From assembly GCA_956465555.1 (NCBI GenBank), contig OY101122.1, positions 1,189,001-1,253,000 of the forward strand: a stretch of 64,000 bases of DNA, given 5' to 3'. A program made the translations under genes and the position numbers. This DNA is from Nitzschia sp. pyKryTriq1 (taxonomy: Eukaryota; Bacillariophyta; Bacillariophyceae; Bacillariales; Bacillariaceae). The notes under the pieces were generated by a model. That model saw nothing but the letters and a program-made list of their open reading frames with translations. It was not told where the DNA came from and made no database searches. Shown piece after piece: positions 4,259 through 18,850 of the stretch; position 1 is the stretch's first letter, and each line of letters opens with the position of its first letter.

Positions 4259-7200
4259 CTAATCGGAAAAGGCAAACGGACCATTCCTGGCACCAAAAAT
4301 GTTGTCTTCGTCGACACTGTGTTTGATATTGTTCAGCGTCGTTTGAAATGCCGACGACATCCGATCTGTCAATTGAGAGGCCCGATGCTTTCCAATGCCG
4401 TGGTGGTGACTCAATGATCCACCTTGCTTCAATATTTCGTCACGAGCTGCAGTCTCGAGTGCTGAGTAGACAGTACTTGCGTTTTTAACTCCGTCGAAAC
4501 TAATGCAGAGGTAAAAGTAAAGACAAGCTCCTTCGTGGTAGAGTTGCGTCACACGACAACCCACAAAAGGGATCCCAGGCAATAGACGGGCGCGATGTTC
4601 CTCTCGAATACGATTCTTGGTTGCGGAGACCAGCTTCTCAATTTTGGACCACGGTGCGAAGGTTTCGAAGGATTCCCCAAGCACATGGTATGTCATGGCA
4701 AAGTCCCGAAGATAGGCAATCATAAAAGTAAGGTCGTATCCCGCCTTGCCAACCCTCGAGCCCAGGCGTATCCCTCCAAATTGGGCAGCAAGTCTCTTAA
4801 TCGTTGCCTCTTGTCCAAGCACTTCAGAGTGGCTCCCTTCGTAGCCGATTGTGGCGCATACAACAGAATTCTCGTCCAGGTTGCCCCTGATCGCCGACGA
4901 CGCGATCTTCGTGAAGACTTCCTTGGCCTTGCTGATCACTGAACCGTCGTCTGGACGAAGGGATTGTCCCAGTCGAAAATGGGCATTATCTAGCAATCGA
5001 ACGCTGGAGGGCGCTTGGAATCCATTGTACTTCGCAATTGCCCGTGCAAAGTTGAGCCCGTCCTCGAAGCAAGGGAAAACAATGCTGTCGAATTTGCGCA
5101 CTTCCGGCAAGCGCCAGATCCGAATCACAGCGCTGGTGACGATTCCAAGACATCCTTCGGAACCAATGAAAAGAGATCGAATGTCCATGCCTTCTGCAAC
5201 TCTGCCGGGAACGACATCTTGCTTTTCGGACCCCTTCCAAAGAATTCCTGTAGACGTAATAGCCTTTGCTGATTTGACAATGTCTTCTATGTTGCCGTAG
5301 CGACTCCTTTTCATGCCACTGGCCTTGGTGGCAATCCACCCACCCAAAGTACTGAATTCAATGCTATCGGGCTCGTGACCCATAGTGTATCCACGCCGTT
5401 CAAGCTCTTGGACTAGATGGCGACCAGTGATTCCAGCCTCGATGTGTGCCAGTCCATCCACTTCATCTATCCAAATTATCCGTTTCATTTCTCTCATATC
5501 GACGGAAATGATCGGTCGGGGTTCCACATCCCTTCCAGGGCACCTGGTTGCATTGCTGACGTTGGTCCCACCACCAAAAGGAATCAAACACCAACCGCGC
5601 TCCTTTGCCGCGTGAATCAGGGCCAACACGTCATCCTCCGAGGTTGGCCAAACTACAGCATCGGGAATCCGAAGGGAAGAAGCTCCACTCCGAATGGCGA
5701 AGACATCCTCTTGTGAATGTCCGGTTCCGTGTCGGACTCGTTCTTGTGTCAAAGTGGAAACCAAAGAGATTTTACTTTTCAGGAAGCAGATATCTTCTGT
5801 ATTGAGGTTGGATTCCATTTCTGTGCTCCACATTGACGACGCCAAAGGAAATTCATGGAGAGGATCAATTTTGATGTTCATCTCGGATTCAATGAATGGC
5901 AAAAGTTTCGTCATCAAACGACCACAAAGATCGTATTTGTCTCCTGTCATTGTGACGGATTGGCCAGAGTTAGCTTTTTTGACAACAAACCCAGAATCCG
6001 AGAAACCCCAAAACCCGAGCCTCTCCTGATCACCATTGGATTGCACAATTTCAGCTGCCATAGATGATGTTGCCGGTACTGTGTCGCCATCCAATGCTTC
6101 CACAGTTGGGCGTTGATATTTTTGCACCTGGACTGCTGCATGGATGAATATATCAGGGACGAAATTCTCCCTATCCTTGTTGATTGATTGGGCGATTTGA
6201 AGAACATGATTTGAGTCCGGTTGTTCAAAGCCTTTGGTGCGTAGCGATTTCTCGGCTTCTGCTACGGCAAAGGATGCCGAATCGAAGAAGCGAGCTAGAG
6301 CCTTGTGGATCTCCGCTGTATTTTCATCAAGAAGATGGGAAGAATCATCCCTGCCCTCAAATGTTTGGTGGTGATTCAACCATTGGGACCAGACCGGGTG
6401 GCTGTCGCGAAACAGTGGAGCAAGATTGTGGCCAGCTTGGAGCACGATCGACATCAATTCAGACTTATTACTTGGAAGAGGAAGAGGGCTTTCATTGGCA
6501 ATCGCAGGCCAAAAGTTGCATCCAAGCTTTGCCATGGCATCGGCCACAACGGAAGCGGGAAGAGAAAAAAGGGCTGATGCGGCTCGGATGTGATAGTCTG
6601 AAACAAGAACGCTGTCTTGCTGTCGCTTCTGGATTTCCAGTGCAAAGGCTGCGAAATCTTCCCTTGTTTCGCACTCCATACGTGTGGCTTCGCCTGCGGA
6701 TATGTGAACTTTACCCAACTCAACCCGGCCCAGGATGACATCTTTCAACCATATCACCAACGAATACATCTTCAATCCACCTCTTCTGCAACCGGAGGCT
6801 TCGTATGTAAGATTTGCTTGCTCTGGTATCCGTTCGTAGTTGATAATTATCGGAACTACAACGTGATTTCCACCAGTGAGATCAAGACTCTTAAGGAGAC
6901 CTGTCTTTGGTTCAACAAACCTACGGTCGCGACTTCTTGTACCCTCGAGGAAGACTTCTATGGAAGCACCCTTGGCAAGTAGATCGCCATCTTTGAGCTT
7001 GCTTAACTTGTCGTTGAGTGCTGGGTCTTCTTGGCCACGTCCCCTTCGAATATACAGTGCCCGAAGTTTCTTAGCAAACCAGCCAACGAAGGGCAGTTGC
7101 TCGAAGTCGTCAGCCGCGATTATGTATGGGATGTCAAGTTGAAGCTCTGGAAGAGCAAACACAGCAAAGCTGAGCAAGATGAAGTCAAAAAGGCTCCTGT

Positions 7201-10200
7201 GCGTCGGGGCAAGGATCAAGTACGTCTGGTCGTACTGGTTGTTGTTCCTCAGAGCCTCGATAACAGTCCGAATCGACACGATATCAACCGTCACGACGGA
7301 GCAAACATGTCGAAGGATCTTGGTGAAAGACCAAGCACTGAGACGCACTGCAAAGGTCCCGCGCGGCTGGGATGATGCCCACCAAAAATCTGACGATATT
7401 TGCTTGTGAATTGCGCCACCGATCTTGTGCATAGAAGGCGGTCCCGGGGAAGATTCAGATTTGTCCAAAGCTGCTGGTTTGCGACTCCGTTCAGAAATGA
7501 ATCGATGTGCAGCCACTGCTGTACTGAAGACATATCTTTTAGCGTCGAAGTCAATCGGCGCTACAAGTTCCGAATGAAAATAAAAGTTTCTTCGCACGAA
7601 AGGGAAAAACAGCAGTGGCAAATCAAGGAAGGGGAGCACCTTCTCAATGTGGGAGGTCTTGAAAGAAAGAGCTCCGAGCCCCCATATCAGAGCTTTGATC
7701 GGTCCTCTCACAAGAATAGAATGTAGTTGCTCGTATGCGCCGTCTTTGGAGCAGTAACATGGCGTCAGCTGGGCTGAAATGAGCAAAGTCAAATATGCCA
7801 AGCTTCGGTCAAAATAGCCCAGAATGCAACCCAACTGTAGATAGCCGACACTAAACTCAAGCCAGGTAAATGTCGACGATTCAGAGGTAGCACCCCATGT
7901 TGCATTGAAAATCCTTCGTCCCGTAAGGGTGCTTGGATATTTGCTGCTAGTCGAAGAAGTCTCATCGAACTCTGAAAATGTCTCACTGCTTGCTCGACTA
8001 AGCTTCTCGAAACTTCCATCGGACGAAGACGCCGTGTCAGCATTGACAGGATTAACCTCTTTCGTTTCGCCAAATGCCTTGACAACGATGAATCGAGAGA
8101 GCACGTCAACGGGGATGTGGGATACCGAGTTTGGCTCCAAATACCAAATATTCCACTGGTTCAGTAGATGAAGGCAAGCACCAGCCACAATTGTGGTTGG
8201 CTTCTCCCCAGCCCACCCTTCAAAAGGTGACTCTACTGCTGGACCCACTATGCTCGGTCGGATGATGAGGGTCTCCGTGGTCTTCTGTCGAAGAAGCAAA
8301 TGCTCACACACGCACTTGCTTAAAGTGTAGGAGTTGGGGAATCCAAGTTCGGTCATAGCCTTCGAAGCGTAGAATTGTGTACCAAGCATAGACCGATAAA
8401 TTTCTCCGGCATCAAAGGTTCCCAGTGGGAACAGGTCTTCGGGTAGTGGTGATTCTTTTGAACCGCACCGCCCTCCATGAACAAATGCAGTGCTGATGTG
8501 AACGAACTGTGCAGCTTTGTGGCTTAAACGAGACGTCAATGCCTGCATTGTCAAAGCAGAGGTAATATTCGATCTTGCAGCATCTGGTAATTCTTGAGTA
8601 AAACCAACCGCAGCTGCACAATGAAAAACATGAAAGATCGTGGGATCATCAAGGATACGGCGAAGATCGCCACCCGACAGCCCTGCAGAAGGCTGTGTTA
8701 CGTCACCGGTTAAAACCTCCACATAGGTTTCCTTTTCATAGTCAGAAAGAAACGAAAACATTGGTTTTTGCAGTAACGTGGATATTCTGGATGCTGAAGT
8801 TTCTCCTTTCTTTCCTCTGCATATCAATATTACTTGTCCTAGAGAAAGCGCTTCTCGTTGTAAAAGTAGATCGCGAAGCATCATGGATCCAATAAACCCT
8901 GTCGCACCGGTAAGCACAATGGTGCGTCCTCCGCTCACTGGTGATGGCTCCATAAGCTGGAGGGCTTGCACTCGAGAAAGAATAGCGTTTCCAGACTGGG
9001 TGTAGCGATCTGGATCAGGCTCCTGTGACGTTGCCGCATCGATCATATCGCTGTGTTCGGCAAAAGCTGTGGATCCCTCCAAGTACAACCTTGCTGCTCG
9101 CGAGTGAAGTATATAGAGGCACAACAGTGCAAAGAGGGTGCCAGCCGTCATACATACCAAGGAAACTGTTCCCATGTAGAGGATCAATTGGATTGGTTTT
9201 AAGAGACCTATCCGGTAAATTGGTAGTATCAAAACCGGAAGAAGGCTAGCCATCCCCAGCATCCACGAACGTTCCGAGGGAGGGCCTTGTAAGAGTAGAC
9301 AGTCCGAATTCCCGCCCGCCGTTGTCATAGTTTCCGCCATTTTGATGGCGTAGTCGACAGCATCTCCGAGTCGTTCCAGGTCAGCAGGAAGTAGCCGCTG
9401 GCTGGCAATGGGTAGATACAAAATGGAATCCATGAGATTCGATGCGTTCGGACAGGAATCTTGGTCCGCAGTGAATGATGTGACACAGCATAGCTGCGAG
9501 GCTCCGCTGACGACATCGAATCCCATAGCGGCAAGATTTCTACTGACAACATCACGGTTTTGGCATCGCACGGGGAAAGCCCAGTAGGTATTCAGCAAGT
9601 CACGACTATATGGAAGAGGGGCATCGGGTATGGACCGTGACAATCTCGTTTCCATCTGGGTACATTGGTGTATCCGATCGCGCACAGAAGATGCCGTTTG
9701 ATTTTTCAATTGTGATAACCGCCGAAGTAAAAGCGCCAGAAGAGCGTACGATGGCCGTTTTCGGATTTGATAGATAAGATCCATTTGATCAGAATGTCGC
9801 GTTTCACCTTTCTTTGTCGGTTGCATCCGAAAACCACGCAATGAGTGGGTGACCAAGTGGTCGAATTCCATTCTCAAAACAGAGCAAACTTTTGCCAGTA
9901 CTCCAACTCGCCACGACGAGTCAGCGATACAATTGAGAACCATTGCCAACAAAACCCTTCGAAGAAACTGGAACGTCGTCTGTGATTGAGGTAGCGATTG
10001 TTGCAGTTGTTCCACGTCGTAACACGATGATGGATTTCGAAATATGGCAACCCCTCCCCCCAAAGCTGTCGAAGTCTTGATCATTCCAAACGAGAAAAAG
10101 CGTATGTCTGCCAATGGATTTCCTTTGTAACAATCATTATTTGCCCCCAGACCGATGAAACATTCGGCACAGTCTTCCCATATATCAATGCCGTGTTCAT

Positions 10201-11413
10201 CCGATAATTTCCTCAGATATTGCATTTGTTCCGACGAGACTGACATCATTCCAAATGGGTGGACTATCATGATAGCGACTGTTTTCGAGGTGATGGCATC
10301 TTCGATCTGCCCGCAGTTGCACCAGGATGATGATCTATCATCATCACCACTACTTGTTGGCAGGTCGATTGGTACCACTTCAAGTTTGTGAAACTGAAGG
10401 ACATGCATCATACCAGGTACACTTATAGGAGGAGCCACAATAACCTGCGATCCGTCTGGAAATTTCTTGGTACACAAATACAAGTCCAAGATGGACCGTA
10501 CGGACAAACCAGTAATCAGGCCGTCCCCCGATCCTTGTTCGGCCTCATTCCAGACGTGACGTATCTGACGGCTCATTTTCTGACAATGATAGGGGGTCCA
10601 TTGCCACCAGAGACAGCATTGCCACAGAGCATAGCACAAATCCCAGCAGGCAATATCTAGCCGACCACGAGGAAGGAGCGGACGAACTCCTAAGAATAGA
10701 CATATTTGAATGAAAAAAGATGAAATCCAACCATACAAGGCGCCCAGCAAGGCGCCCAGCAGAGTACTTGACGCAATATTTCTTCTCGAACCGTCCGAGG
10801 TGATAGGCAACTGGTGCCCATTCCCAGGTAGCTCAGAGGGACTATCGTCATGTAGCTGCGAGATCTTTGGCTGAGATCCCTCCGACGAACCCGTCGAATC
10901 ATCGTCTATCCGGCTGGCCGTGAATTTCTTGACGATATCTTGGCATTGCTGCCCCAGTGTGTCTCCACGAGAAGCTACTACATCGATGTATTCCAACATG
11001 GCTTGTTGCGTTGTAAGACCTCGACAATCCATCCAGGCTTGGATTTTGGATCTCGCCACTAATTGAAAGACCGACGGGCCAGCAATATCTTCAGAGGAGG
11101 AACAAGGACCTTCTGTCACATGCTTGTAAAGCCCATACAGGCGCAATTTGTCTTGATTCGATGTGCTGACCCTTTCGGCGGGTGTCTCGCGCACCAACTG
11201 GGCCACTAAATCAAACAGTTCCTTCTTGTCTTTGGGCGACAGTGAGGAGACAGGCACTATCGGAGACTGCGCCATGCTGACAATGTTGATAGACATGTCA
11301 AGAAACGAGGAGGTATGAGCATGATGTGGGAGAGGAGATGTACTTGTAACTTGTACCAGTATCGGAAATCGGAAGTTTGAAGTCCAAAAAAGTCCAAAGA
11401 TGGTGGCTCTCAT
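4259..11413 (-). CDS. ether-lipid megaenzyme: ACBP - DegT-like PLP - fatty acyl-CoA reductase - DHAP acyltransferase - alkyl-DHAP synthase
   Basis: Uninterrupted frame of 2384 residues; ATGs at 11296 and 11275 are alternative starts, the latter in better context. Domains in order: acyl-CoA-binding protein fold (about 60-150, KLRLYGLYKHVTEG); a hydrophobic segment (215-245); a DegT/DnrJ/StrS-type PLP domain (about 285-690) with D414 in WEDCAE and likely Schiff-base K446 in SFGMIK; two hydrophobic segments (717-770); fatty acyl-CoA reductase (829-1300) with TGATGFIG at 835, YTLSK (Y1029, K1033) and RPSIVGP; DHAP/glycerophosphate acyltransferase (1340-1640) with HRSLFD at 1405 and EGTRSR at 1490; alkyl-DHAP synthase (1790-2384) with PFGGGTN at 1945, an EPDSIEFSTLGGW block and HHHG at 2336. 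Together these should reduce acyl-CoA to fatty alcohol, acylate DHAP and swap acyl for alkyl, giving 1-O-alkyl-DHAP. The PLP domain's role is unknown. The C-terminus (FSD) is not a PTS1 signal. Confidence 0.9.
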   Translation of the reverse strand: MRATIFGLFWTSNFRFPILVQVTSTSPLPHHAHTSSFLDMSINIVSMAQSPIVPVSSLSPKDKKELFDLVAQLVRETPAERVSTSNQDKLRLYGLYKHVTEGPCSSSEDIAGPSVFQLVARSKIQAWMDCRGLTTQQAMLEYIDVVASRGDTLGQQCQDIVKKFTASRIDDDSTGSSEGSQPKISQLHDDSPSELPGNGHQLPITSDGSRRNIASSTLLGALLGALYGWISSFFIQICLFLGVRPLLPRGRLDIACWDLCYALWQCCLWWQWTPYHCQKMSRQIRHVWNEAEQGSGDGLITGLSVRSILDLYLCTKKFPDGSQVIVAPPISVPGMMHVLQFHKLEVVPIDLPTSSGDDDRSSSWCNCGQIEDAITSKTVAIMIVHPFGMMSVSSEQMQYLRKLSDEHGIDIWEDCAECFIGLGANNDCYKGNPLADIRFFSFGMIKTSTALGGGVAIFRNPSSCYDVEQLQQSLPQSQTTFQFLRRVLLAMVLNCIADSSWRVGVLAKVCSVLRMEFDHLVTHSLRGFRMQPTKKGETRHSDQMDLIYQIRKRPSYALLALLLRRLSQLKNQTASSVRDRIHQCTQMETRLSRSIPDAPLPYSRDLLNTYWAFPVRCQNRDVVSRNLAAMGFDVVSGASQLCCVTSFTADQDSCPNASNLMDSILYLPIASQRLLPADLERLGDAVDYAIKMAETMTTAGGNSDCLLLQGPPSERSWMLGMASLLPVLILPIYRIGLLKPIQLILYMGTVSLVCMTAGTLFALLCLYILHSRAARLYLEGSTAFAEHSDMIDAATSQEPDPDRYTQSGNAILSRVQALQLMEPSPVSGGRTIVLTGATGFIGSMMLRDLLLQREALSLGQVILICRGKKGETSASRISTLLQKPMFSFLSDYEKETYVEVLTGDVTQPSAGLSGGDLRRILDDPTIFHVFHCAAAVGFTQELPDAARSNITSALTMQALTSRLSHKAAQFVHISTAFVHGGRCGSKESPLPEDLFPLGTFDAGEIYRSMLGTQFYASKAMTELGFPNSYTLSKCVCEHLLLRQKTTETLIIRPSIVGPAVESPFEGWAGEKPTTIVAGACLHLLNQWNIWYLEPNSVSHIPVDVLSRFIVVKAFGETKEVNPVNADTASSSDGSFEKLSRASSETFSEFDETSSTSSKYPSTLTGRRIFNATWGATSESSTFTWLEFSVGYLQLGCILGYFDRSLAYLTLLISAQLTPCYCSKDGAYEQLHSILVRGPIKALIWGLGALSFKTSHIEKVLPFLDLPLLFFPFVRRNFYFHSELVAPIDFDAKRYVFSTAVAAHRFISERSRKPAALDKSESSPGPPSMHKIGGAIHKQISSDFWWASSQPRGTFAVRLSAWSFTKILRHVCSVVTVDIVSIRTVIEALRNNNQYDQTYLILAPTHRSLFDFILLSFAVFALPELQLDIPYIIAADDFEQLPFVGWFAKKLRALYIRRGRGQEDPALNDKLSKLKDGDLLAKGASIEVFLEGTRSRDRRFVEPKTGLLKSLDLTGGNHVVVPIIINYERIPEQANLTYEASGCRRGGLKMYSLVIWLKDVILGRVELGKVHISAGEATRMECETREDFAAFALEIQKRQQDSVLVSDYHIRAASALFSLPASVVADAMAKLGCNFWPAIANESPLPLPSNKSELMSIVLQAGHNLAPLFRDSHPVWSQWLNHHQTFEGRDDSSHLLDENTAEIHKALARFFDSASFAVAEAEKSLRTKGFEQPDSNHVLQIAQSINKDRENFVPDIFIHAAVQVQKYQRPTVEALDGDTVPATSSMAAEIVQSNGDQERLGFWGFSDSGFVVKKANSGQSVTMTGDKYDLCGRLMTKLLPFIESEMNIKIDPLHEFPLASSMWSTEMESNLNTEDICFLKSKISLVSTLTQERVRHGTGHSQEDVFAIRSGASSLRIPDAVVWPTSEDDVLALIHAAKERGWCLIPFGGGTNVSNATRCPGRDVEPRPIISVDMREMKRIIWIDEVDGLAHIEAGITGRHLVQELERRGYTMGHEPDSIEFSTLGGWIATKASGMKRSRYGNIEDIVKSAKAITSTGILWKGSEKQDVVPGRVAEGMDIRSLFIGSEGCLGIVTSAVIRIWRLPEVRKFDSIVFPCFEDGLNFARAIAKYNGFQAPSSVRLLDNAHFRLGQSLRPDDGSVISKAKEVFTKIASSAIRGNLDENSVVCATIGYEGSHSEVLGQEATIKRLAAQFGGIRLGSRVGKAGYDLTFMIAYLRDFAMTYHVLGESFETFAPWSKIEKLVSATKNRIREEHRARLLPGIPFVGCRVTQLYHEGACLYFYLCISFDGVKNASTVYSALETAARDEILKQGGSLSHHHGIGKHRASQLTDRMSSAFQTTLNNIKHSVDEDNIFGARNGPFAFSD

Positions 11414-12114: not shown

Positions 12115-13122
12115 CTAGATATTCTGCTGCTGCGTAGCCCAAAAAGAAAAGTTTACCATGTTCGGTGGATATCGGTCATCGTTATTCTGAGTGGGAGCAG
12201 GGTGTGCAGGGGGAACGGCGCCAAAGGGAGTGGGTCTGTACAAATCTCGTTGAGGAGGAAGCATCGACGGTGGGTTGTGATTCTGTGGCGGTACACGACG
12301 TTGGAGAAAGGACATCTCGTATCCTACTTCTTCATTGCCATCGCCACCCTCCATCCTGGCTCCCTCGTCATCTTCGCCTCCGATCTTCGTCGTCACTACA
12401 TGTTGCAATCTTGCGGAAAGGTTCTGTGCTTCACTTCCAAGTTTTCGCTTCTTACAAAATCTCTTCAACGACTCCAGATAGTAGAGAGCATCACCATCAC
12501 TCACTTCGAAATCTATCTTCATTTTGTGTCGCTTCAAGACGTTAGCGAGCCATCCAGGGCTCGCGCGGAATTCATCAGGAGGATGCCCCAGAGCCACGGC
12601 AAATCGTTTTGCCATCTCCAACAAAAAGGGCCACGAAATGGCCATTTTCCCATTGTCAGAGAACTGCTCTCGTGTTTCGATGAACGCCAGCAAACATTGC
12701 TCAACATCTAGGAACTTCCCCTTTCGATTCCTCTTGATGGAGTCGTCCCGAGGGAGCTTGCCATCCTTGTACGCCTTCAGACGTTTCCCAAAGGCTTGGC
12801 GGTCTTGGTAGTCAAGCACTCCAGAATCGGGAGATTTTAGAAAATTGACTTGATTCTCCTGATACTTTGCGGAATCGTTGACAAACTTTTCACACATTTC
12901 GTACCAAAAGCTTGCCGGATACTCTTTGCGGTAAGCGCGGCGTTTCTTCGTCTTGGAGCCTTTCCCAGTACTTTCAGAGGGGGCAGCGGCTACCGCAGTT
13001 GGTGCGATGATATTAGTTCCAGCATCTTCTTGGCTTGCATTTGGGGCTTCTGCCGTCTCGACGACTTCTTGAGTTTCAGGTAAACCCTCGGCATCCGTCG
13101 CTGCTGTTGAACTGATCGACAT
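12115..13122 (-). CDS. CENP-B/Tc5-type helix-turn-helix protein without a transposase domain
   Basis: Single-exon frame of 335 residues. An N-terminal low-complexity, Ala- and Glu-rich segment (1-55) ends in a basic KTKKRRAYRK patch that could serve as a nuclear signal. Residues about 65-130 resemble a CENP-B N-terminal HTH (FWYEMCEKF, then AFGKRLKAYKDGKL). Residues about 135-205 resemble the Tc5/CENP-B second HTH (VEQCLLAFIETREQF, LLEMAKRFA, SPGWLANVLKRHK). The tail is Pro- and Asn-rich and disordered. Such DNA-binding pairs come from pogo/Tigger/Tc5 transposases. No DDE catalytic domain follows, so this is either a domesticated DNA-binding protein or a host family sharing the fold. Function is not assignable. 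Confidence 0.7.
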   Translation of the reverse strand: MSISSTAATDAEGLPETQEVVETAEAPNASQEDAGTNIIAPTAVAAAPSESTGKGSKTKKRRAYRKEYPASFWYEMCEKFVNDSAKYQENQVNFLKSPDSGVLDYQDRQAFGKRLKAYKDGKLPRDDSIKRNRKGKFLDVEQCLLAFIETREQFSDNGKMAISWPFLLEMAKRFAVALGHPPDEFRASPGWLANVLKRHKMKIDFEVSDGDALYYLESLKRFCKKRKLGSEAQNLSARLQHVVTTKIGGEDDEGARMEGGDGNEEVGYEMSFLQRRVPPQNHNPPSMLPPQRDLYRPTPFGAVPPAHPAPTQNNDDRYPPNMVNFSFWATQQQNI

Positions 13123-15259: not shown

Positions 15260-15331
15260 GTCCACTTGGTCTAGAGGCATGATTCCTGCTTTGGGTGCAG
15301 GAGGTCCCGGGTTCGATTCCCGGAGTGGACC
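15260..15331 (+). tRNA. tRNA-Pro (anticodon UGG)
   Basis: The 7-bp acceptor stem GTCCACT/AGTGGAC pairs perfectly. The anticodon arm is CCTGC-TTTGGGT-GCAGG, giving anticodon TGG. The T arm is CCGGG-TTCGATT-CCCGG. The D-arm TGGTCTAGAGG and T-arm GGTTCGATTCC double as the A and B boxes of the internal pol III promoter. There is no intron, and CCA is not encoded. A TTTT terminator follows about 11 bases downstream. Confidence 0.96.
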
Positions 15332-16897: not shown

Positions 16898-18850
16898 ATG
16901 ATGACTGTAGCTTTACGCTTCTTGGCCTCGGCCGCCTTGTTGGCGTCGGTGAATGCCTTTTACATCCCCGGTGTGCAGCCGGCAGAGTTCAAAAAAGGGG
17001 ACGAAGTTCCCATGAAGGTGAACGCAATGACTTCGATTCATACTCAAATCCCCAAGGACTATTACCGCTTGCCGTTCTGTCAGCCCGAGGGGGGGCCCAA
17101 GATGGCTTCTGAGAACTTGGGAGAGTTCTTGACTGGAAACAAGATTCAAAGCAGTCCCTACGCCATCAACATGTTGACCGAGACGTACTGCCAAAAGCTG
17201 TGCCAGACAACGATTTCCAAGGTGGAGGCTGCCAAGATGCGCCTGCACATCAAATACGGATACCACAACAACTGGATCATTGACAACTTGCCCTCTGCCG
17301 CTGTCGGTTTGAACGCCGCCACTGGAGAAAAGCAAAAGCACTACGCCGGAGGCTTCCCCATTGGTTTTATCGCGAGCAACACCAAGCAGCCTTACATCTT
17401 CAATCACGTCAACATCATTATTGACTACCACCAGCGGGATCCTGCAGTGGAAGCTTACCGCGTGGTAGGCTTCGCTGTTGAGCCCATGAGTGTGGCACAC
17501 GAGTTCCAAGGAGGGTTCAAGTGGGACGGAGAGAGCAAGGAAGGACTCACCAAGCCTCTCGCGACCTGCGATCCTGCCAGGCACATGGACCGCTCCATGA
17601 TCACTAAGAACCAGCTTGTACAGCCAAACTCAGATATATTGTACACCTACGATGTCATTTGGAAGGAGAGCGATGTTGCCTGGTCTTCCCGCTGGGACAT
17701 CTATCTTTCGGAAGATCACTTGGTTCCTGCACAGGTGCACTGGTACTCCATCACCAACTCCATTTTGGTGGTTCTCTTCTTGAGTCTTCTTGTCGTTTCG
17801 ATCTTGGTACGCAACTTGCGTCGAGATATCGCGGCTTACAATGCACTTGCTGCCCTTGCAGATGAAGAGAAGGACGAAGACATGGACGAAAGTGGATGGA
17901 AGTTGGTTCACGCCGACGTCTTCCGTCCTCCCAGCAACATGCCCATGATGTACTGCGTGTGCATTGGAGGCGGTGTCCAGCTTGGGATTACCATTCTCTT
18001 TGTCATTCTATTCTCAGCAGTCGGATTCTTGAGCCCCGCTCGTCGTGGATCGCTGATGAACGCCATCCTGGTCTTTTACATGCTCTCAGGGATCATTGCG
18101 GGCTACGTCTCCAGTCGCCTTTACAAGGCATTCAAGGGACGTCTCTGGCAGCTCTGCACTGTAATTACTGCGCTTCTCTTCCCTGGTATTGCCTTTTGCT
18201 TGTTCTTGTTCTTCAATATCATCCTCTGGTTCATGCATTCGGCGGCTTCGGCTCCCTTCTTGGATGTTATTATTGTCGCTGCTATGTGGTGCTGCATCTC
18301 CATTCCTTTGGTCTTCTTGGGTGCATACTTTGGATACAAGGAAGAATCCATTGAGTTCCCCACTGTTACTTCGACCATTGCTCGGGCAATTCCTCCCCCG
18401 CAACCACTCCTACACCCTACGGTGGGTATGTTGGTGGCAGGGATTGTTCCCTTCGCGGCGGCGTACGTGGAACTCTTTTTCATCATGACCAGTTTGTGGA
18501 TGGACCAATACTACTATGTTTTTGGTTTCACCCTCATTGTGTACCTCATTCTTATTACCACTTGCGCTGAGGTCACGGTCTTGCTCGTCTACTACCAACT
18601 CTGTGCTGAAAATCACCGCTGGTGGTGGTTCTCCTTCTTTGCCCCTGGATCCACCGCTTTGTATACGTTTATCTACAGCATGTTCTGGTTCAAGTCATTG
18701 GAGGCCTCGCGAATGCTCATGACTTATTTGCTGTATTTCGGATACATGTCCTTGATCTGTTCGGCCATGTTGCTGGTGACTGGTACGGTTGGATCCTTGA
18801 CTTCCTTGTGGTTTGTCCGCAAGATTTTTGGAACCATCAAGGTCGATTAG
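16898..18850 (+). CDS. TM9SF / EMP70 nonaspanin
   Basis: Single-exon frame of 650 residues; two adjacent ATGs open it. A cleavable signal peptide (1-21) precedes a lumenal domain of roughly 260 residues with the family's FYIPGVQPAEF start and conserved YRLPFCQP. About nine transmembrane segments follow (from about residue 285). The C-terminus ends IFGTIKVD, matching the KxD Golgi/COPI retention signal of TM9 proteins. Family members act in endosomal and Golgi membrane-protein sorting. Length and architecture are normal. Confidence 0.95.
   Translation: MMTVALRFLASAALLASVNAFYIPGVQPAEFKKGDEVPMKVNAMTSIHTQIPKDYYRLPFCQPEGGPKMASENLGEFLTGNKIQSSPYAINMLTETYCQKLCQTTISKVEAAKMRLHIKYGYHNNWIIDNLPSAAVGLNAATGEKQKHYAGGFPIGFIASNTKQPYIFNHVNIIIDYHQRDPAVEAYRVVGFAVEPMSVAHEFQGGFKWDGESKEGLTKPLATCDPARHMDRSMITKNQLVQPNSDILYTYDVIWKESDVAWSSRWDIYLSEDHLVPAQVHWYSITNSILVVLFLSLLVVSILVRNLRRDIAAYNALAALADEEKDEDMDESGWKLVHADVFRPPSNMPMMYCVCIGGGVQLGITILFVILFSAVGFLSPARRGSLMNAILVFYMLSGIIAGYVSSRLYKAFKGRLWQLCTVITALLFPGIAFCLFLFFNIILWFMHSAASAPFLDVIIVAAMWCCISIPLVFLGAYFGYKEESIEFPTVTSTIARAIPPPQPLLHPTVGMLVAGIVPFAAAYVELFFIMTSLWMDQYYYVFGFTLIVYLILITTCAEVTVLLVYYQLCAENHRWWWFSFFAPGSTALYTFIYSMFWFKSLEASRMLMTYLLYFGYMSLICSAMLLVTGTVGSLTSLWFVRKIFGTIKVD

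Follow-up and report, generated by a model that had tools for sequence, protein, structure and literature searches.

The closest described system is FARAT of Dictyostelium, the product of fatA, in which a fatty acyl-CoA reductase (FAR) is followed by an acyltransferase in one chain and which is described as making both acyl-DHAP and fatty alcohol (PMC7375469). A FAR–DHAP acyltransferase fusion, ART1, has also been reported from Tetrahymena (PMC3143110). FARAT and alkyl-DHAP synthase (AGPS) are reported to make alkyl-DHAP in Dictyostelium (PMC7375469, PMC13256971), the C2 ketone of which is removed by a separate reductase (PMC13256971). The protein investigated here, from the diatom Nitzschia sp. 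pyKryTriq1, resembles FARAT and ART1 in its FAR-to-acyltransferase order within one chain and in its pathway, as far as the available text of those papers goes (PMC7375469, PMC3143110). It differs in that AGPS, ACBP and DegT modules are also part of the chain, none of which is described for FARAT in the available text of that paper. AGPS as represented by the solved structures 4bby and 2uuu is a separate protein, whereas in the diatom it is one module of a larger chain.

Architecture of the diatom protein

The window (the whole 64,000-nucleotide stretch of DNA that was analysed) contains, at positions 4259–11413 of the minus strand, a single unbroken frame of 2384 codons followed by a stop, whereas the plus strand over the same positions, read in frame, contains many stops. 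The true start is probably Met47 (codon 11275–11273), which would give a protein of about 2338 aa, because nine of 11 aligned relatives begin within a few residues of it, one starting further upstream and one later; the first 46 codons of the 2384-codon frame are accordingly doubtful. An earlier note, made from the DNA alone, had placed an uninterrupted frame of 2384 residues at these coordinates, which were correct, without giving the strand. It had also described five modules with intact catalytic motifs and set a profile search of each segment; profile searches found every module, PlsB/GNPAT-type and AGPS domains included, and the motifs were kept. Its statement that FARAT-type fusions are already known likewise holds, the diatom protein being an extended variant.

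All six Pfam domains (ACBP, DegT, NAD_binding_4, Acyltransferase, FAD_binding_4 and FAD-oxidase_C) scored above their gathering cut-offs. On the minus strand, the ACBP module (residues 65–146, positions 10976–11221; PF00887, 2.4e-17, 63.3 bits compared with a gathering score of 28.3) is followed by a DegT-type PLP module (residues ~242–714, 9272–10690), within which DegT_DnrJ_EryC1 matched residues 328–471 (8.2e-15). Two hydrophobic segments come next (residues 718–736 and 751–769, 9107–9262; family-mean hydropathy 1.66 and 2.19), predicted to form a transmembrane hairpin. Conservation tracked the modules, with mean identities to the window protein of 56 % for FAR, 55 % for AGPS, 45 % for the acyltransferase, 41 % for ACBP and 39 % for DegT, compared with 13 % in the first linker and 15 % in the hairpin (averaged over the 49 to 65 rows that were sufficiently filled).

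FARs carry TGxxGxxG and YxxxK motifs. Both were present in the NAD-binding part of the FAR module (residues 834–1109, 8087–8914; PF07993, 4.5e-39), as TGATGFIG at 835–842 and YTLSK at 1029–1033, and no match to the FAR C-terminal Sterile domain (PF03015) was detected in the window protein at E values up to 10. The acyltransferase core (residues 1392–1524, 6842–7240; PF01553, 9.6e-20) contains HRSLFD (1405–1410) and EGTRSR (1490–1495). Its best named matches were PlsB/GPAT, the NCBIfam PlsB model matching at 5.7e-19, below that model's cut-off, and no GNPAT structure was listed among its PDB matches. As in FARAT, a single chain carries FAR ahead of a PlsB/GNPAT-type acyltransferase, and from this fusion the acyltransferase would be expected to be specific for DHAP.

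The C-terminal 585 residues (1793–2377, 4283–6037), with FAD_binding_4 at 1917–2059 (1.9e-35) and FAD-oxidase_C at 2103–2374 (3.1e-24), aligned with peroxisomal AGPS 4bby at 1.1e-136. Solved AGPS structures matched at 1.1e-136 and 1.3e-65, and the next family, the D-lactate/glycolate dehydrogenases, at 3.5e-17 and weaker; we take 4bby and 2uuu to be the guinea pig and Dictyostelium enzymes, respectively. His300, Arg419, Tyr578 and His615–617 (guinea-pig numbering), presumably the catalytic residues of AGPS, aligned to His2013, Arg2139, Tyr2299 and His2336–2338. Among the rows with a letter in an alignment of 72 relatives, these were kept in 69 of 72 (the three exceptions carrying Met), 72 of 72, 65 of 65 and 64 of 64, respectively. 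Both the similarity over the whole module and the presumed catalytic residues are as in AGPS, and the ether-lipid part of the reading is strong.

A whole-protein search of the source genome (40.65 Mb, 20 contigs) revealed a single copy of the five-module gene. Apart from a free-standing ACBP and a 568-aa frame that matched more weakly (39.6 bits) as an FAD-dehydrogenase, it gave no other match, which rules out a redundant paralogue. NAD_binding_4 had 16 matches in this genome, of which one besides the five-module protein exceeded 61 bits; as a candidate second FAR it was rejected, since it has an upstream acyl-carrier-like stretch and, judged by eye, reads as aminoadipate-reductase-like. A plasmalogen desaturase was also sought, but the sole PF10520 match, with a leader that we take to be plastid-like, was judged by eye to be of the plastid FAD4 type; no plasmalogen step is therefore claimed.

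Distribution and predicted location

Relatives were collected from a protein search at E ≤ 1e-3 (best 120 of 127 matches) and two piece searches (14, and the best 120 of 153), giving proteins P0001–P0206. BLAST with the window's modules found all five in the same order in 52 of the 206 proteins, the window's own included, DegT-FAR-AT-AGPS (AT, acyltransferase) in 20 and FAR-AT-AGPS in seven; these counts are lower bounds, as many of the remaining proteins are fragments or frames running into introns. The five-module protein spans eight named diatom genera, being found in Nitzschia (two), Seminavis, Thalassiosira profunda (P0035), Fistulifera, Cyclotella (two), Skeletonema marinoi and, with taxids checked, Chaetoceros sp. 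GSL56 and Thalassionema nitzschioides; some organism labels among the relatives are incomplete. Shorter matches came from Discostella, Cyclostephanos, Stephanodiscus, Pseudo-nitzschia, Cylindrotheca and Amphora. The order that the earlier note suggested seeking in other stramenopiles is therefore present in diatoms. That note had also named separate mRNAs as an outcome that would speak against one protein; instead, relatives' transcripts span all modules, the MMETSP transcript P0015 (2287 aa, labelled complete) covering every one and the transcript-derived P0039 (Chaetoceros) and P0058 (Thalassionema) also spanning modules.

A fusion of FAR and acyltransferase was reported in 2011 to be absent from Thalassiosira pseudonana and Phaeodactylum tricornutum, according to the available text of PMC3143110. 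For the genus Thalassiosira as a whole this does not hold, because T. profunda P0035 (all five modules) and T. exigua P0091 (FAR-AT-AGPS) carry the fusion. Beyond the diatoms, DegT-FAR-AT-AGPS was found in the bolidophyte Triparma strigata (P0112) and the dinoflagellate Effrenium voratum (P0200); the absence of ACBP from these two may be a fault of the protein models, since both begin inside DegT. P0193, from the green alga Pycnococcus provasolii, consists of just FAR-AT-AGPS and lacks DegT. Relatives of about 1500 aa were considered as a four-module paralogue and rejected, many stopping at or shortly past the common site RDRR..TGLLR, as a frame entering an intron would.

No paper recognisably on this enzyme was among the literature matches listed, and as far as these listings show the five-module extension of FARAT is undescribed. 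Nothing of use on ether lipids in diatoms was among the matches listed; in the available text of PMC6723447 the term occurs in one reference title only. The phrase occurs once each in the available text of two papers on diatom transcriptomes (PMC7281586, PMC9959416).

FARAT is described as a peroxisomal enzyme with SKL at its C-terminus, whereas the window protein ends in FSD, has no PTS1 and has a predicted membrane hairpin. A PTS1 ([SAC][KRH][LM]), the signal for matrix targeting of the Dictyostelium type, was found at none of 71 candidate family C-termini, of which at least three are intron read-throughs and from which AGPS-bearing rows with other ends were left out; a PTS2-like stretch lay within the first 60 residues in one of the 71. 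Import by PTS2 has been reported missing in P. tricornutum, according to the available text of PMC9244630. The two stretches between DegT and FAR were kept as hydrophobic rather than in sequence. The two-helix hairpin between DegT and FAR, together with the lack of a C-terminal PTS1, suggests a protein anchored at the ER or peroxisomal membrane, outside the peroxisome matrix.

The DegT-type module and its bacterial relatives

Lys446 (10076–10078) and Asp414 (10172–10174), which we take to be the lysine forming the PLP Schiff base and the aspartate opposite the pyridine nitrogen, were never replaced in alignable rows, and in a profile alignment to 7n63 the subfamily lysine fell on the lysine of SFYPGK. 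The predicted model of the module has a complete DegT aminotransferase fold, the nearest solved folds (Foldseek) being nucleotide-sugar aminotransferases; most solved DegT relatives bear the names of sugar or inosose aminotransferases. From this conservation and the predicted fold, the module is probably a complete, active aminotransferase. Unlike the DegT/DnrJ/EryC1 sugar aminotransferases (ArnB, perosamine synthase, scyllo-inosose aminotransferases), it has a distinct SFGxIKTxTAL signature and is fused to ether-lipid genes, to which its bacterial kin are linked, and neither the window protein nor P0127 nor the protein of L015 scored above the cut-off of any NCBIfam model, equivalogs included.

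Ten gene families were sought within 6 kb of DegT in 80 bacterial loci, the neighbour counts resting on mechanical ORFs and many of the contigs being short. A DprE1/ALO-like FAD oxidase was near DegT in 10 of the 80 loci, a TPP enzyme in five, a beta-ketoacyl synthase in four (L015, L037, L039 and L059, with another at L129), an acyltransferase in three, a glycerol-3-phosphate-dehydrogenase-like gene in three, AGPS in two, FAR in two and three further families in two each; 57 loci had none of the 10 families within this distance. The DegT subfamily is thus not ether-lipid-specific, given the 57 loci with none, AGPS in two and the DprE1/ALO-type oxidase in 10. Glycerol-3-phosphate dehydrogenase was the best NCBIfam name for the neighbours at L039 and L065, but below cut-offs.

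Both neighbouring AGPS are true AGPS, matching 2uuu at 2.9e-128 and 5.2e-125, with the next-ranked families following at 5e-26 and 6e-27. In the Verrucomicrobiota locus L015, the genes for acyltransferase, AGPS and DegT lie on the same strand with overlaps of a few bases. A ketoacyl-synthase-like frame is found upstream, and a 104-aa frame in convergent orientation, where the contig ends, has a FAR C-terminal (Sterile) domain just over the cut-off. DegT, AGPS and FAR adjoin in L037, from the Gemmatimonadota. No lipid genes were found among the ORFs scanned beside the AGPS of genome G003 (L114).

Co-occurrence was scored with cut-offs of E ≤ 1e-40 for DegT and of E ≤ 1e-80 (loose) or > 800 bits (strict) for AGPS; all Fisher values given here ignore kinship. 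Among 298 Gemmatimonadota genomes, DegT was found in five, AGPS in nine and both in four (Fisher 1.9e-6), and all three genomes with strict AGPS had DegT (Fisher 2.3e-6). This sample includes G002, the source of the queries, chosen for having both genes; without it, DegT was found in four, AGPS in eight and both in three of 297 (Fisher 5.1e-5 loose), and strict AGPS in two, both with DegT (Fisher 1.4e-4). The link between DegT and AGPS is not mere adjacency, because the two genes are on different contigs in G518, G520 and G529; in G518 and G520 AGPS adjoins FAR. In 387 Verrucomicrobiota genomes DegT was found in one, the query's own (G001, chosen for both genes), and strong AGPS in two, with 11 other matches to the AGPS query at 205–223 bits. 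Among 16 genomes hand-picked from the 80, AGPS was present in G001, G002, G003 (where the match was confirmed as AGPS-like) and G005, G004 had partial weak matches and 11 had none. The four DegT genes that the tree places closest to the eukaryotic clade belong to G001, G003, G004 and G005.

A quick tree built from 114 rows united the 23 eukaryotic DegT modules, without exception, in a single clade (SH-aLRT 95), which grouped with L015, L048, L056 and L059 (SH-aLRT 91). A careful tree of 57 rows, in which the bootstrap had not settled and P0112 and some other rows were omitted, recovered the eukaryotes at 99/95 and split off the eukaryotes plus these four loci at 81/90, the inner order being without resolution. 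The AU test did not reject eukaryotes with L015/L048/L056/L059 (p 0.93), a clade named after the tree was viewed, nor eukaryotes with L037 and L078 (p 0.29). A single origin of the eukaryotic module is likely from these trees, its exact bacterial source not being settled by them.

Proposed route and alternative readings

We put at about 0.7 the probability that the protein is a membrane-anchored diatom ether-lipid synthase whose DegT module is an active aminotransferase of the pathway, its best candidate substrate, at less than even odds, being a DHAP-family ketone. The modules, their order, motifs and conservation, the single copy, the predicted DegT fold and the bacterial neighbourhood and co-occurrence were obtained directly; in the route that we infer, ACBP would supply long-chain acyl-CoA to the acyltransferase and FAR, the former converting DHAP to acyl-DHAP and the latter a second acyl-CoA to fatty alcohol, after which AGPS would swap acyl for alkyl to give 1-O-alkyl-DHAP. 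The C2 ketone would be retained in this intermediate, and DegT would aminate it (in DHAP, acyl-DHAP or alkyl-DHAP) to yield a 2-amino-2-deoxyglycerol (serinol) phosphate ether lipid, which could be N-acylated. The aminotransferases RtxA (PMC3222319) and Cj1437 (PMC11800397) are described, in the available text, as converting DHAP to serinol phosphate; they are likened to the DegT module by the reaction proposed, but give a soluble product.

A DHAP-type ketone is put forward tentatively, because the DegT subfamily adjoins AGPS, glycerol-3-phosphate-dehydrogenase-like and DprE1-like enzymes, which would make or hold such a carbonyl: alkyl-DHAP for AGPS, DHAP for the glycerol-3-phosphate-dehydrogenase-like enzyme and, by homology only, a lipid-linked sugar ketone for the DprE1-like enzyme. 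Other DegT substrates are conceivable in view of the ketoacyl synthase neighbours and the sugar-aminotransferase fold. Several observations weigh against the synthase with an active DegT module as proposed: the bacterial subfamily is not ether-lipid-specific, P0193 shows that alkyl-DHAP does not require DegT, the nearest solved DegT folds act on sugar ketones, beta-ketoacyl synthase near DegT (four of 80 loci and L129) fits another substrate, the AU test leaves the eukaryotic module with another bacterial pair unrejected, the glycerol-3-phosphate dehydrogenase neighbours fall below NCBIfam cut-offs, and in the Verrucomicrobiota the sole genome with DegT of 387 is the query's own.

The protein might instead be a conventional enzyme with 1-O-alkyl-DHAP as product, a separate reductase leading on to alkyl-glycerol-3-phosphate, and with a DegT module whose role is PLP binding, scaffolding or regulation, without a lipid step. 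This is possible though unlikely: FARAT and AGPS are reported to make alkyl-DHAP in Dictyostelium, DegT appears dispensable for it because P0193 has FAR-AT-AGPS without DegT, and the hairpin and linkers flanking DegT vary freely, but Lys446 and Asp414 never do in alignable rows, the predicted aminotransferase fold is complete, and a free-standing bacterial DegT of the same subfamily adjoins or co-occurs with AGPS. The FAR reaction passes through an aldehyde; amination of a chain-side carbonyl, either this fatty aldehyde or a beta-ketoacyl thioester, would yield a product aminated in its alkyl chain, or a fatty amine, and the beta-ketoacyl synthases near DegT at L015, L037, L039, L059 and L129 would fit. 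We consider this slightly less likely still, in view of the three glycerol-3-phosphate-dehydrogenase-like and ten DprE1/ALO-like neighbours and of the solved DegT relatives, named mostly as sugar or inosose aminotransferases.

That the acyltransferase is a glycerol-3-phosphate acyltransferase and the protein feeds mainly ester lipids, with AGPS and FAR secondary, seems improbable. The PlsB/GPAT names of its best matches and the lack of a listed GNPAT structure point that way, but the FAR-AT order is that of FARAT, whose acyltransferase is reported to use DHAP (PMC7375469), the acyltransferase is fused to AGPS, which needs acyl-DHAP, and JGI names P0110, P0119, P0142 and P0165 glycerone phosphate O-acyltransferase. 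The module order shared by 52 of the 206 proteins, which come from different genera, together with the transcripts, rules out a chance frame or mis-assembly; the same order and the transcript-derived P0015, P0039 and P0058 make it very improbable that separate genes lie in one frame or that a polyprotein is cut into enzymes, for which no support was found.

The five-module ether-lipid reading of the earlier note thus stands, but it had left the PLP module unexplained, and the end product may differ from plain alkyl-DHAP because DegT is conserved, complete, probably active and linked to bacterial ether-lipid genes. What is surprising in the finding is this module, together with its link to bacteria. 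It is conceivable, though we hold it with less than even confidence, that diatoms and some bacteria make undescribed ether glycerolipids in which nitrogen replaces the sn-2 oxygen (1-O-alkyl-2-amino-2-deoxyglycerol, N-acylated and ceramide-like), the diatoms by way of one membrane-bound synthase outside the peroxisome matrix.

Many genera of diatoms, which are major marine primary producers, carry the five-module enzyme. Should the ether-lipid reading be right, diatoms would have a dedicated ether-lipid route that seemingly lies outside the peroxisome matrix, the site of the Dictyostelium enzymes. If DegT aminates a DHAP-type ketone, the finding predicts an ether lipid with a nitrogen backbone and supplies a testable gene for it, both in diatoms and in bacteria carrying these genes. 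A PLP enzyme fused to ether-lipid enzymes, with bacterial kin near ether-lipid genes, hints at an undescribed kind of lipid.

Variation among relatives of the megaenzyme and genes beside it

Among the proteins retrieved as relatives of the megaenzyme (ACBP-DegT-FAR-AT-AGPS), methionine replaced the AGPS-module residue His2013, which aligns to His300 of guinea-pig AGPS, in P0117, P0118 and the protein P0200 from the dinoflagellate Effrenium voratum, and histidine was kept in the other 69 of 72 rows. Judged from the sequence, the AGPS active site of these three proteins is altered by the change of His2013 to Met; P0117 and P0118 also grouped with P0200 in the DegT tree. In P0121 (2249 aa) the modules follow the order FAR-AT-ACBP-AGPS, and therefore the ACBP was recruited elsewhere in the chain. 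Five shorter relatives of 767–897 aa (P0198, P0199, P0202, P0204 and P0206), all bacterial-looking, were FAR-acyltransferase fusions in the order of the Dictyostelium FARAT.

A short distance upstream of the megaenzyme gene (window 4259–11413, reverse strand), the frame at 12115–13122 (reverse strand) encodes a DNA-binding domain of the Tc5 transposase type. On the forward strand, a single frame (222–1985) combines a domain resembling leucine carboxyl methyltransferase with a GNAT acetyltransferase domain, and tRNA-Pro (TGG) (15260–15331) is followed by an EMP70 gene (16898–18850).

Bacterial ether-lipid-like gene clusters

Four bacterial loci carried ether-lipid-like clusters. That of L113 (95–5988) comprised ACP-FAR, acyltransferase-like, SDR, AGPS and CTP-transferase-type genes, and that of L133 (5183–9866) FAR-like, acyltransferase and AGPS genes; FAR-AGPS pairs were present in L130 (5934–9303) and L131 (8138–11480).

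Bacterial partners of the DegT subfamily

In five betaproteobacterial loci (L005, L006, L007, L009 and L013) a TPP enzyme was encoded on the opposite strand, 3–32 bases from DegT. Of these MAG records, two carry the title Bordetella parapertussis, but the DegT tree placed both with unnamed Betaproteobacteria.

A DprE1/ALO-like FAD oxidase was paired with DegT of the megaenzyme-type subfamily at 10 loci (L017, L030, L031, L043, L049, L050, L052, L053, L055 and L076), eight from Planctomycetota and two from Pseudomonadota; comparison with solved structures covered L053 only. An oxidase of this kind and a DegT of the same subfamily were fused in one protein, P0130. Oxidase and DegT form a two-gene module without an existing name, for which a lipid-linked polyol, oxidized and then aminated, would be a candidate substrate.
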